Positions 4,471 through 6,892 of a stretch of 64,000 nucleotides of DNA are shown piece by piece. The stretch spans positions 92,738-156,737 of the forward strand of contig QHSL01000066.1 in the NCBI GenBank assembly GCA_003220435.1, written 5' to 3'. Position 1 is the first letter of the stretch, and each line of letters begins with the position of its first letter. Position numbers and translations under genes: made by a program. The notes below the pieces were generated by a model, which did no database searches, was not told the origin of the DNA, and saw only the letters and a list, made by a program, of their open reading frames with translations. This DNA is from Candidatus Rokuibacteriota bacterium. GTDB lineage: Bacteria > Methylomirabilota > Methylomirabilia > Rokubacteriales > CSP1-6.

Positions 4471-4488
4471 GAGGCGTCGTAACGCCTC
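4471..4488 (-). terminator. Perfect 7-bp hairpin at the end of the OsmC-like selenoprotein gene
   Basis: GAGGCGT and ACGCCTC pair perfectly around a 4-base loop, and the hairpin begins inside the TGA stop codon of the minus-strand OsmC-like gene. There is no U-tract, so it could be a weak intrinsic terminator or an mRNA-stabilising 3' hairpin separating this gene from the zinc-ribbon gene downstream. Confidence 0.4.
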
Positions 4489-4957
4489 ACACCTCTTCGA
4501 ACTCGGCGCTGTACTCGACGTTGATCCCACGGCGCACGCTCTGGCTGGCCGGGCAGCCCTTCTCGTGCACGCCGAGCGCGCGCTCGGCCTCGGCCCGCTT
4601 GCCCTTGGGGATCTTGCACGTGTAGCGGACGCGGATCGTGGTGATCAGCGCCACGCCGTCGACGTTCTCGATGATGCCCTCGACGTGGGCGACCAGATTG
4701 TCCGGAGCGCTCTTGATTCCGCGCGCATCCAGCGCGCTTCCCATATTCCCGGTGAGTCAGCCGGCGACGGCCATCACGAGATGGTCCAGCGTCGCGGGCC
4801 GCTCGACCTCCGGCTCCGTCTTGTAGAACTTCTTGATGCCCCCGTGGATGCCGTAGGGAACGGGGGTGTCGGGGAACGCGTCCAGGTACGCCGTCTTCAT
4901 GCCGCGTCCCGGCTCCTTGACGACCCGCGCCTTCGTCACGTGGATGATCTCACCCAT
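4487..4957 (-). CDS. OsmC-family peroxidase, predicted selenoprotein (Sec67 encoded by TGA)
   Basis: OsmC/Ohr-type proteins reduce organic hydroperoxides through a peroxidatic and a resolving thiol. The ATG at 4957 has a strong GAGGAGGTG site. Reading through the single in-frame TGA at 4757-4759 gives 156 aa, normal for the family. The TGA falls in HLVMAVAG-U-LTGNMGSALD, where OsmC proteins have the peroxidatic cysteine, and the frame continues without another lesion. A second cysteine, Cys135 in KGCPASQS, occupies the resolving position. A hairpin with a G-containing loop lies 25 nt after the TGA (4721-4737). It is divergent from the peroxiredoxin selenoprotein gene, with 68 bases between the starts. 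The alternative is a nonsense-mutated pseudogene, made unlikely by two further cases next door. Confidence 0.85.
4721..4737 (-). promoter_or_regulatory. Candidate bacterial SECIS hairpin of the first OsmC-like gene
   Basis: Six perfect pairs (GCGCGC with GCGCGC) close a TGGAT loop. Twenty-five nucleotides separate the TGA from the loop, and G is the second loop base. Bacterial SECIS elements lie inside the coding region, have a G among the first two loop bases and sit about 16-37 nt after the UGA. GCGCGC stems are easy to form in this GC-rich DNA, so this hairpin alone is the weakest of the three. Confidence 0.6.
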
Positions 4958-5025
4958 GGAACACCTCCTCACTCGGGGCGCATGATATACCGAGGGCGAC
5001 GCGAATTCCGCCCTTGGAGGTCCCA
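4958..5025. promoter_or_regulatory. Shared intergenic region of the divergent selenoprotein genes
   Basis: The 68 bases between the two divergent starts must carry both promoters. An inverted repeat CTCGG (4972-4976) / CCGAG (4990-4994) flanks the AT-rich GATATAC stretch, a plausible -10 region with an operator-like symmetry. No convincing -35 box is visible. Ribosome binding sites face outward at both ends (GAGGAGG on minus, GGAGG at 5016-5020 on plus). Confidence 0.4.
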
Positions 5026-5688
5026 ATGACACTTCGTGAAAGGCTCGACACGATGCGAGAGGCGTCCAAGGCGCGCATCCCGCCGGAGGCGCGCGCCGTC
5101 ATGGAGCGCAGCGTCGCAGATCTACGATCTTCCGGGATCATGACCCGGATCGCCGCCGTCGGCCAGAAGGCGCCCGACTTCGCGCTGCCCAACGCGGCCG
5201 GCCGCACCGTCAGCCTCGCCGAGCTGCGGGCCCGTGGACCCGTCGTGCTGTCGTTCTACCGCGGCCGCTGGTGACCGTACTGCAACGCAGAGCTGGAGGC
5301 TCTGCAACAGGCCCTGCCCGAGATCGCCGCGGCCGGCGGGGCGCTGGCCGTGATCTCGCCCCAGGTGGCCCGCACACCGCGTGAGACCGAGGAGCCGAAG
5401 CCCATGGAGTTCGCGCTGCTCCGCGACTTCGGCAACCGCGTGGCCGAGGCGTACGGCCTGGTCTTCACGCTGCCCGACGACCTGCGCGCGATCTATCTCA
5501 AGTTCGGCATCGACCTGGCGCGGGGCAACGGCGACGGCACCTGGCGGCTGCCGGTGCCGGCCCGCTTCGTGATCGACCGCGGGGGCGTGATCCGCGCCGT
5601 CGACGCCGACCCGGACTACACGCGGCGCCCGGAGCCGGCGCACACGGTCGAGATTTTGAAACGGCTCCGCGACGGAGGCGCGTCATGA
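5026..5688 (+). CDS. AhpC/TSA-family peroxiredoxin-like protein, predicted selenoprotein (Sec83 encoded by TGA)
   Basis: Peroxiredoxin-like protein of 220 aa when the TGA at 5272-5274 is read through. The thioredoxin-like fold begins near residue 45 (VGQKAPDFALPNAAG). The active site reads FYRGRW-U-PYCNAEL: relatives have RGxWCPYC, so selenocysteine replaces the peroxidatic cysteine and Cys86 remains as partner (a UxxC motif). Downstream sequence stays open to 5688 and keeps the rest of the fold (FALLRDFGNRVAEAYG, VPARFVIDRGGVIRAV). The ATG at 5026 has GGAGG 5 bases upstream. A perfect 7-bp hairpin follows the TGA. The stop overlaps the next selenoprotein start by 4 bases, so the two are translationally coupled. 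Likely role: reduction of peroxides with thiol donors. Confidence 0.92.
5287..5305 (+). promoter_or_regulatory. Candidate bacterial SECIS hairpin of the peroxiredoxin-like gene
   Basis: GCAGAGC (5287-5293) pairs perfectly with GCTCTGC (5299-5305) around the loop TGGAG. Nineteen nucleotides lie between the TGA and the loop, and G is the second loop base, as expected for the SelB-binding hairpin of bacterial selenoprotein mRNAs. The stem includes A and T pairs, so it is not just a GC-composition effect. Confidence 0.82.
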
Positions 5689-6191
5689 GCGCCGTGCCCG
5701 AAGGCCTCAACCCCCGGATCGAGAGCCGCGAGATCGTGTTCGACGCCAGCGTCGACCTGGTCACGCCGTTTCTCAAGCTCGCGACCGTCAGCCGGGGCGG
5801 CGCCGGCCACATGACGTTCGCCTCCGACGAGGGGCCGAGCCTCGGCGGGCTCGGCTCGGCGCCCACGCCGCTCATGTACTTCAGCGCCGCGCTCGCGTTC
5901 TGACTGATGACCCAGGTGTCCCGGTACGGGCACATGCTGAAGGTCACGGTGAACGGGATGCGGATGAAGGTGACGGCGCGCTACCGGGTCGACGGCTCGG
6001 TGCTCAACGACACGGTCCAGGGCCGGATGGTGGGCGCCGAGACCACGCTGGAGATCGACTCGCCGGATCCGCCCGAGCGCGTCGCCCGGGTCGTGCGCAA
6101 CGCCGAGCGCGGCTGCTTCGTTCTGCAGGCGTTGCAGAACCCGGTGCCGGTGACGGGGCGCACCCTGCTCAACGGCACGCCGCTCGAGTGA
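5685..6191 (+). CDS. OsmC-family peroxidase, predicted selenoprotein (Sec73 encoded by TGA)
   Basis: Second OsmC-like protein, 168 aa with the TGA at 5901-5903 read through. The TGA lies in PLMYFSAALAF-U-LMTQVSRYGH, again at the peroxidatic cysteine position. The C-terminal half continues (MLKVTVNGMRMKVTARY) to the second cysteine, Cys144 in AERGCFVLQAL, and the family-typical end with NPVPV. The ATG overlaps the TGA stop of the peroxiredoxin-like gene (ATGA). A hairpin with a bulged T and a GTA loop follows the TGA. It differs clearly in sequence from the minus-strand OsmC protein, so the pair is not a recent duplication. Probably acts on organic hydroperoxides with its operon partner. Confidence 0.87.
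5913..5939 (+). promoter_or_regulatory. Candidate bacterial SECIS hairpin with bulged U, second OsmC-like gene
   Basis: GTG (5916-5918) and CCCG (5920-5923) pair with CGGG (5927-5930) and CAC (5931-5933), leaving T5919 bulged and a GTA loop at 5924-5926. CAG/CTG can extend the base (5913-5915 with 5937-5939). Twenty nucleotides separate the TGA from the loop. A bulged U below a short helix and a G-U loop are the known recognition features of the E. coli fdhF SECIS, so this is the most diagnostic of the three hairpins. Confidence 0.82.
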
Positions 6192-6237: not shown

Positions 6238-6447
6238 ATGGAGACGGTGACGCTGTCCAGCAAGTATCGGCTCGTGGTGCCGCCCGGCGCGCGCGAGCGG
6301 CTGCGCCTCCGGCCGGGGATGCGGATCACCGTCCTCGACAAGGGGGGAGTGATCTTCCTGATCCCCGAACGGCCGCTGGCGACCTACCGAGGCATCGCCC
6401 GTGGGGTGAGCGCCAGGGGACTGCGCGAGAAGAAGGACCGCCTCTGA
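6238..6447 (+). CDS. AbrB/MazE/SpoVT-type antitoxin (orphan)
   Basis: 69 aa, with a swapped-hairpin AbrB DNA-binding domain: VTLSSKYRLVVPPGARERLRLRPGMRI at residues 4-30, followed by a hydrophobic strand (GGVIFLIPE) and a basic tail. Such proteins neutralise a VapC-type PIN nuclease encoded immediately downstream and autoregulate their operon. Here the toxin gene is reduced to a short fossil (6444-6552), so the antitoxin is orphaned. Start ATG 6238 lies right behind its own promoter; the AAGAGG is very close to the ATG. Confidence 0.85.
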   Translation: METVTLSSKYRLVVPPGARERLRLRPGMRITVLDKGGVIFLIPERPLATYRGIARGVSARGLREKKDRL

Positions 6448-6583: not shown

Positions 6584-6892
6584 ATGGCCCAACCGGCACT
6601 GCCACCGTGGATCCAGGCCCTGCAGCAGCGCGATCCGAAGTTCGTCGAGACCTACATGACCCAGCGCGAGCACGTCCTGCGCGACGGCGCCATTCCGGCC
6701 AAGTACAAGCACCTCATGACGATGATCGTGGACGCGCTCCAGTCCCACCCGGACGGCGTGACGAACATCGCCAACCGCGCGCGCGGTGCTGGCGCCTCGG
6801 AGGCGGAGATCCAGGAGGCCGTCGAAGTCGCGTACCTGTTCGGCGGCACGCCGGCGCTGGTGACCGCGATGAACGCCTTCAAGAGCAGTTAG
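6584..6892 (+). CDS. Carboxymuconolactone decarboxylase (AhpD-like) fold protein lacking the CxxC
   Basis: 102 aa helical protein of the CMD family (YKHLMTMIVDALQSHPDGVTNIANRARGAGASEAEIQEAVEVAY). AhpD-type members use a CxxC to reduce peroxiredoxins; this protein has no cysteine, so it is not a thiol reductant in the AhpD sense. The ATG at 6584 follows a strong AAAGGAGAGG site, and TATATAA upstream could be a -10 box. Its position just behind peroxidase genes may be coincidental, or may reflect loss of an AhpD-like role. Function unknown. Confidence 0.8.
   Translation: MAQPALPPWIQALQQRDPKFVETYMTQREHVLRDGAIPAKYKHLMTMIVDALQSHPDGVTNIANRARGAGASEAEIQEAVEVAYLFGGTPALVTAMNAFKSS

Follow-up and report, generated by a model that had tools for sequence, protein, structure and literature searches.

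How should three neighbouring genes be read when each carries a single in-frame TGA before its terminal stop codon? The question is raised by a divergent cluster at positions 4487 to 6191 of a 64,000-nucleotide stretch of DNA from a Candidatus Rokuibacteriota bacterium (the window; assembly GCA_003220435.1, contig QHSL01000066.1). An earlier interpretation made from the letters alone (the sequence-only reading) took the cluster to encode three selenocysteine (Sec, U) peroxidases, namely an OsmC protein (here OsmC1), a peroxiredoxin-like (Prx-like) protein and a second OsmC protein (OsmC2). The analysis described below indicates that these are very probably three selenoprotein genes into which Sec is inserted by the genome's own SelA-SelB-SelC-SelD, and that the products are likely three selenium enzymes reducing peroxides or related oxidants. 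The genes, their TGAs and the hairpins behind them, which resemble selenocysteine insertion sequences (SECIS), are as follows.

4487..4957, minus strand: OsmC1, a Sec-OsmC gene of 156 amino acids (aa) with U67 and C135; stop TGA at 4489-4487
4759-4757, minus strand: in-frame TGA (read directly), predicted Sec codon 67 of OsmC1
4721..4737, minus strand: SECIS-like hairpin of OsmC1, 6-base-pair (bp) stem and loop TGGAT (GCGCGC-TGGAT-GCGCGC)
5026..5688, plus strand: Prx-like selenoprotein gene of 220 aa with U83-P-Y-C86 (UxxC); stop TGA at 5686-5688
5272..5274, plus strand: in-frame TGA (read directly), predicted Sec codon 83 of the Prx-like gene
5287..5305, plus strand: SECIS-like hairpin of the Prx-like gene, 7-bp stem and loop TGGAG (GCAGAGC-TGGAG-GCTCTGC)
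5685..6191, plus strand: OsmC2, a Sec-OsmC gene of 168 aa with U73 and C144; stop TGA
5901..5903, plus strand: in-frame TGA (read directly), predicted Sec codon 73 of OsmC2
5916..5933, plus strand: SECIS-like hairpin of OsmC2, bulged stem and loop GTA (GTGtCCCG-GTA-CGGGCAC)

The three TGAs, one in each gene, are where the sequence-only reading had placed them, and each product keeps a second cysteine (Cys), as that reading had said. With the TGA translated, the contexts are AVAGULTGNMG (U67 of OsmC1), FYRGRWUPYCNAE (U83 of the Prx-like protein) and ALAFULMTQVS (U73 of OsmC2).

The check proposed with the sequence-only reading, a search of the same genome for selA, selB, selC and selD, finds all four in the window's own assembly (G000; 5.4 Mb in 147 contigs, 95.5% complete). 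The tRNA-Sec gene selC scores 69.8 bits against a cut-off of 47, with ten weaker rows below the cut-off; selB (351 bits) is on the same contig at a distance of 2.7 kb, with selA (568 bits) between the two. The selD gene (341 bits; L048, G000:C100:66727) has a TGA in its own CAGUASKM motif. Within the window, ARAGORN and Rfam at its gathering cut-offs detected no tRNA and no RNA family. In the proposed mechanism, SelA-SelB-SelC-SelD would insert Sec at the three TGAs and SelB would read the hairpins. The closest named genomes are metagenome-assembled genomes (MAGs) of Candidatus Rokuibacteriota, which we take to be part of the Methylomirabilota in GTDB; their scaffold names look like soil depths.

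A change of the genetic code, with TGA read as an amino acid everywhere, would also carry translation through these positions, and it could draw on the occurrence of TGA inside many genes and on the Trp found at the column in some database homologues. However, the terminal stop of all three genes is itself TGA, so the code is unchanged and TGA has both meanings within one gene; moreover, the internal TGAs sit at redox-Cys columns and are followed by hairpins. The terminal stops led us to reject a global code change, which is the least probable of all the explanations considered.

An in-frame TGA is normally a stop, and the codons could instead be real stops in decayed genes, or sequencing errors; three relatives with a broken neighbourhood or a broken OsmC1 (G004, G005 and G084, described below) could be cited in favour. 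Conservation of the codon across separate genomes argues against this explanation. Searches for each gene, with read-through of stops, covered 119 genomes, and the best-scoring fetched loci (the window's copy counted, and for Prx one locus per genome) were examined for their codon at the Sec column. The codon is TGA in 28 of 28 Prx loci (L018-L045), 22 of 22 OsmC2 loci (L052-L073) and 30 of 30 OsmC1 loci (L082-L111). At 45-61% identity, TGA-bearing OsmC1 is also present in further families of the class. When the window was compared with four relatives per gene, the ratio of nonsynonymous to synonymous substitution rates (dN/dS) was 0.01-0.28 before the TGA and 0.03-0.20 behind it. The frame is thus under purifying selection on both sides of the TGA, and the window's genes are not decayed; the earlier claim of an intact frame behind each TGA is borne out. 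With the Sec machinery also present, decay or sequencing error is very improbable, and TGA conservation together with dN/dS led us to reject it for the window.

Database homologues allow the same columns to be followed into proteins with an ordinary residue. The searches found 1923 homologues for Prx, 268 for OsmC1 and 761 for OsmC2, and the columns were examined among the 120 matches listed for each gene, a scope that applies to all such counts here. Cys occupies the column in 92 of the 99 Prx homologues that cover it and in 18 of 22 for OsmC1. The three TGAs stand at conserved Cys columns that are presumed to be catalytic. The Cys/Sec exchange that the sequence-only reading expected is, as judged from these alignments, strong for Prx and OsmC1 and thin for OsmC2, where Cys is found in just 1 of the 8 homologues that reach the column. 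Outside the MAGs named as Rokubacteria, the 8 top-scoring Prx loci (L116-L123, 38-52% identity) comprise 7 with Cys and 1 with TGA. The latter, from a Gammaproteobacteria MAG (L117), is a Prx of the same type at 50% identity.

Many homologues do not reach the column at all (21 for Prx, 98 for OsmC1 and 112 for OsmC2), and nearly all of these begin behind the TGA, as the match does in 96 of 120 cases for OsmC1 and 112 of 120 for OsmC2. Standard gene calling evidently breaks these genes. The same entries might be taken to mean that the UGA is a selenium-dependent switch, in which restarts at ATG 5907 (OsmC2) and ATG 4744 (OsmC1), 3 and 12 nucleotides (nt) behind the TGA, respectively, yield short regulatory OsmC fragments when selenium is lacking. 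Gene callers would produce such entries from any TGA, however, and the frame before the TGA is also under purifying selection; we regard a switch as improbable.

Bacterial SECIS-like hairpins lie within a range of about 16-37 nt behind the UGA and have a G among the first two loop bases. The sequence-only reading had described a hairpin of this kind behind each TGA, and this part of the description stands, including the early G in all three; it gave a loop distance of 19-25 nt, and the loops of the best-folding hairpins start 26 (OsmC1), 21 (Prx-like) and 21 nt (OsmC2) after the UGA. The hairpins were followed through distinct sequences with an identity of 44% or more; the one from the Gammaproteobacteria is among the 29 Prx sequences. 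A G is found among the first two loop bases of the best hairpin in 27 of 28 OsmC1, 25 of 29 Prx and 19 of 19 OsmC2 sequences. One pair of the Prx stem varies, with CG in 20 sequences, TA in 8 and a mismatch in 1; the six other core pairs are kept in 26 to 29 of the 29, and the next outward pair in just 5. The stems of OsmC2 pair in 128 of 133 cells and those of class-wide OsmC1 in 146 of 154, and where paired, the changes are one-sided. Codon usage also bears the mark of the stems. GCT is kept in the Prx stem in 29 of 29 sequences, as against 2.4% of 630 Ala codons, and CTA occurs in 8 of 29 Prx sequences and at one site in 16 of 22 class-wide OsmC1 sequences, as against 0 of 514 Leu codons in 13 open reading frames (ORFs) of the window; these rare codons are apparently kept because the hairpin stem forces them. 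The OsmC1 stem of the window's genus (loop at nt 26) differs from the one that prevails in the class (loop mostly at nt 18), and therefore the element has changed while the TGA stayed.

Several observations weigh against this reading of the cluster or against parts of it. With regard to the column, 4 OsmC1, 5 OsmC2 (plus 2 gaps) and 7 Prx homologues have a residue other than Cys (Trp, Gly, Leu, Ser and others). The low Cys count for OsmC2 given above belongs here as well, and although Cys is found in six distant OsmC2 relatives (L076-L081), their identity is low (25-29%). A lower-scoring, truncated OsmC1 row in G084 (L307, G084:C204) has TGC instead of TGA at the column, and its homology ends immediately past that codon; this copy is a broken gene or an assembly join. 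In G004 (L042), OsmC1 is present, and residues 1-151 of Prx run in frame into residues 113-167 of OsmC2, a fusion that is due to a deletion or an assembly join. In G005, OsmC2 is reduced to a scrap. With regard to the RNA, the 39 nt that follow the UGA in the window's own sequences have an unexceptional folding energy, both against synonymous recoding (ranks 0.19, 0.475 and 0.075 for OsmC1, Prx and OsmC2) and when set beside other segments of the gene concerned (36th of 130, 61st of 194 and 19th of 142). With regard to function, the Prx-like protein is without the PxxxT/SxxC(U) motif of typical peroxiredoxins, having WUPYC in the alignment and not TxxC/U, and neither the OsmC1 nor the OsmC2 alignment, the latter with truncated and distant rows, shows an invariant Arg before the Sec.

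The energy comparison was extended to the relatives, where the mean z against synonymous recoding is -0.75 for OsmC1, -1.22 for Prx and -1.11 for OsmC2, with p<=0.05 in 21% of 28 OsmC1, 38% of 29 Prx and 0 of 19 OsmC2 sequences. Because this signal is weak, folding energy against recoding was not relied on as proof of a SECIS, and the RNA case is built on conservation, on the paired change of the Prx stem and on the rare codons. The folding check suggested by the sequence-only reading thus had a divided outcome, with hairpins that are conserved and energies of the window's own sequences that are ordinary. Its central claim, three selenoprotein genes in a divergent cluster, is supported by the Sec machinery, the conserved TGAs and the hairpins.

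What might the three proteins do? OsmC1 belongs to PF02566 (OsmC; 48.5 bits), as does OsmC2 (58.3 bits), and the Prx-like protein belongs to PF00578 (AhpC-TSA; 96.5 bits), the AhpC/TSA domain and UxxC motif identifying it as a Prx-like UxxC selenoprotein. At 164.4 bits, OsmC2 also exceeds the cut-off (95) of the NCBIfam model NF041052, 'OsmC-related (seleno)protein'. No NCBIfam cut-off is reached by OsmC1 or the Prx-like protein, and OsmC1 is not among the NF041052 matches; its relative L089, at 61% identity, scores 22.3 bits against that model, far below the cut-off. Because a search of PDB sequences gave no match for OsmC1, a structure model was compared with Foldseek. The model (predicted local distance difference test, pLDDT, 94) places U67 in a long helix (56-77), with C135 lying between two helices; the structures that it matches are those of OsmC and Ohr. 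For OsmC2 the model is weaker (pLDDT 72.7), and the protein matches an OsmC-like protein among PDB sequences. An OsmC fold with two redox residues is therefore indicated by the model and Foldseek for OsmC1, and by PF02566 and the PDB sequence match for OsmC2. Like the Ohr/OsmC peroxidases, OsmC1 has the fold, and the two redox residues are in matching places (in a third OsmC of the genome, described below, by alignment); unlike them, the proteins have Sec in place of one Cys, and the OsmC1 and OsmC2 alignments show no invariant Arg before the Sec, a comparison that is weak for OsmC2 because of its truncated and distant rows. The catalytic Arg and Glu of Ohr are Arg19 and Glu51 in X. fastidiosa.

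By analogy with these families, the selenol would attack the oxidant, presumably a hydroperoxide, and the second Cys would resolve the product as a selenenylsulfide. The trio may thus have peroxidase activity, and function is the soft part of the claim. With no invariant Arg in the OsmC1 or OsmC2 alignment and no TxxC/U in the Prx-like protein, the assignment of peroxidase activity may be wrong, and the name peroxidase in the sequence-only reading is not supported. The proteins might be selenoproteins of another kind, the UxxC Prx-like protein a thiol-disulfide oxidoreductase and the OsmC-like proteins acting on some other substrate. Apart from these motif and alignment features, this suggestion gains from the PDB, where the Prx-like protein has its best sequence match in a thioredoxin-family protein, and from a 2026 review that, in the text available, places UxxC proteins under the heading 'Prx-like thiol:disulfide oxidoreductase' (PMC13188914). 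Membership in PF00578 and PF02566, the resemblance of the OsmC1 model to OsmC and Ohr structures, and the two redox residues in each protein count against it, and we consider a set of non-peroxidases less likely than not, although it is the most serious of the alternatives.

The sequence-only reading had also inferred a unit probably served by thioredoxin. In the accessible part of one report, Ohr is reduced by lipoylated proteins, unlike the thioredoxin-fed peroxiredoxins (PMC5962072), and therefore a thioredoxin-served unit is not the default. Since the published Ohr reductants are lipoylated proteins (same source and extent), thioredoxin was not adopted as the shared reductant; the OsmC proteins would be recharged by lipoylated proteins or another dithiol.

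The arrangement of the genes bears on their expression. OsmC2 starts at 5685, inside the stop codon of the Prx-like gene (overlap ATGA), and the two proteins would be translated together. The divergent side has the following elements.

4964..4969, minus strand: AGGAGG (seen directly), likely ribosome-binding site of OsmC1
4958..5025, no strand: divergent intergenic region of 68 bp between OsmC1 and the Prx-like gene
5016..5020, plus strand: GGAGG (seen directly), likely ribosome-binding site of the Prx-like gene

A scan for sigma-70 found no sigma-70-like site in the 68-bp region. In two relatives, G001 and G007, a gene for a TetR regulator (TetR_N and TetR_C_13) lies between OsmC1 and Prx (L113:1601-2206 and L114:3338-3922), with a Cys in RGCLVTNSA. 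This placement suggests that the divergent genes would share regulation. The window has no match to the TetR regulator of G001 and G007.

Neighbourhoods of the Prx loci were compared in fetched flanks of about 1.5 kb where the contig allows, some flanks ending at contig ends. An OsmC gene is present in the flank of 12 of the 28 Prx loci, and the other 16 have none or a scrap (scraps in L022, L031 and L044). The full trio is found in the window's genome, in G003 and G007, and in G001 with OsmC2 extending past the contig end. Prx is accompanied by OsmC2 in G002, G006, G067 and G015, about 1 kb apart in the last, and in G041, G066 and G059 a more distant Sec-OsmC (35-40% identity to OsmC1) stands directly behind Prx. 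The complete unit of the sequence-only reading is not upheld by these data: 4 genomes of the genus carry the trio, in one case truncated at a contig end, a fifth has a broken version, and 16 of 28 Prx loci lack a whole OsmC alongside. Prx recurs beside Sec-OsmC genes of different types, which lends support to a shared task.

The remaining OsmC proteins of the genome extend the picture. All 3 OsmC-domain matches of G000 carry one TGA, and among the matches listed for 71 related genomes, 109 of 150 OsmC rows have exactly one TGA and 41 have none. Sec in peroxidases is usually at the attacking position. In the third OsmC (L194, G000:C109:30264-30677) the first position is Cys and the TGA is at the second, resolving Cys (YRGRUPLYRT); in alignments with PDB proteins, this column is the conserved second Cys of Ohr. 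The Cys-then-TGA order is found in 21 of 21 loci of this type, 20 of which had been picked because they bear a TGA, and in 20 of the 21 the TGA is followed by a hairpin whose loop is at nt 21. Among unpicked rows, 40 of 40 from the same taxonomic order have one TGA (one also has a TAA), and elsewhere 3 of 7 have one and 4 of 7 do not. Of 37 unpicked loci examined, 35 were alignable, and 33 of these have Cys then TGA (30 in the order, 3 outside it). L302 and L305, from outside the order, have Cys then Cys in the same alignment, an instance of Cys/Sec exchange at the resolving position. The third OsmC, with U-P-L-Y at the second Cys, is far below the NF041052 cut-off. Another Sec-OsmC type with TGA at the first position (for example AALGSUTSIT) is present in related genomes (L231, L234, L235, L239 and L249). 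In the AhpC/TSA family, 11 of the 25 rows of G000 carry one TGA, each beside or within the redox motif, and because of these and the 3 of 3 OsmC rows the genome looks very selenoprotein-rich.

A broader proposal can be advanced tentatively from these data. The lineage may have moved the OsmC/Ohr family to selenium at either catalytic position, the peroxidatic one in the cluster pair and the resolving one in the third OsmC, and the trio may form a TetR-regulated, selenium-dependent oxidant-defence unit whose neighbours share one task.

The protein types themselves, Sec-OsmC and Sec-Prx-like, are already known, and the family of OsmC2 is already catalogued as including selenoproteins. The available text of a 2005 report describes an OsmC-like selenoprotein (UxxT) from the Sargasso Sea set and lists the Sec Prx-like UxxC protein as already known (PMC1088965; the latter also in PMC2398784). 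OsmC2 resembles the former in scoring above the NF041052 cut-off and in having U-x-x-T, and differs from it, as far as that text goes, in overlapping a Sec-Prx-like gene; the matches of the model do not include OsmC1 (U-L-T-G). Likewise, the Prx-like protein shares the AhpC/TSA domain and UxxC with its known counterparts and, unlike them in the portions of those two reports available, stands beside Sec-OsmC genes. The sequence-only reading had called the trio arrangement unfamiliar, and the open-licence PMC papers searched, as far as their text was available, likewise mention no OsmC in such a cluster, no OsmC1-type family and no Sec at the resolving Cys of an OsmC. A Methylomirabilota MAG with 63 predicted selenoproteins, probably from the same phylum, is mentioned in the available part of a review (Deng et al. 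2026, cited in PMC13188914), which gives the count alone; the cluster and the OsmC family of such genomes were not met in its text. OsmC proteins whose Sec replaces the attacking Cys, others whose Sec replaces the resolving Cys, and the Cys versions of both make up a natural set for a direct test. Their comparison would show what selenium adds at each step and bears on why Sec is kept.

Downstream of OsmC2, the window encodes a protein with an AbrB-like antitoxin domain (6238-6447; TIGR01439), with no plus-strand ORF of at least 60 aa between this gene and position 6584. A carboxymuconolactone decarboxylase/AhpD-like protein (PF02627) with zero Cys is encoded at 6584-6892, 0.4 kb past OsmC2.

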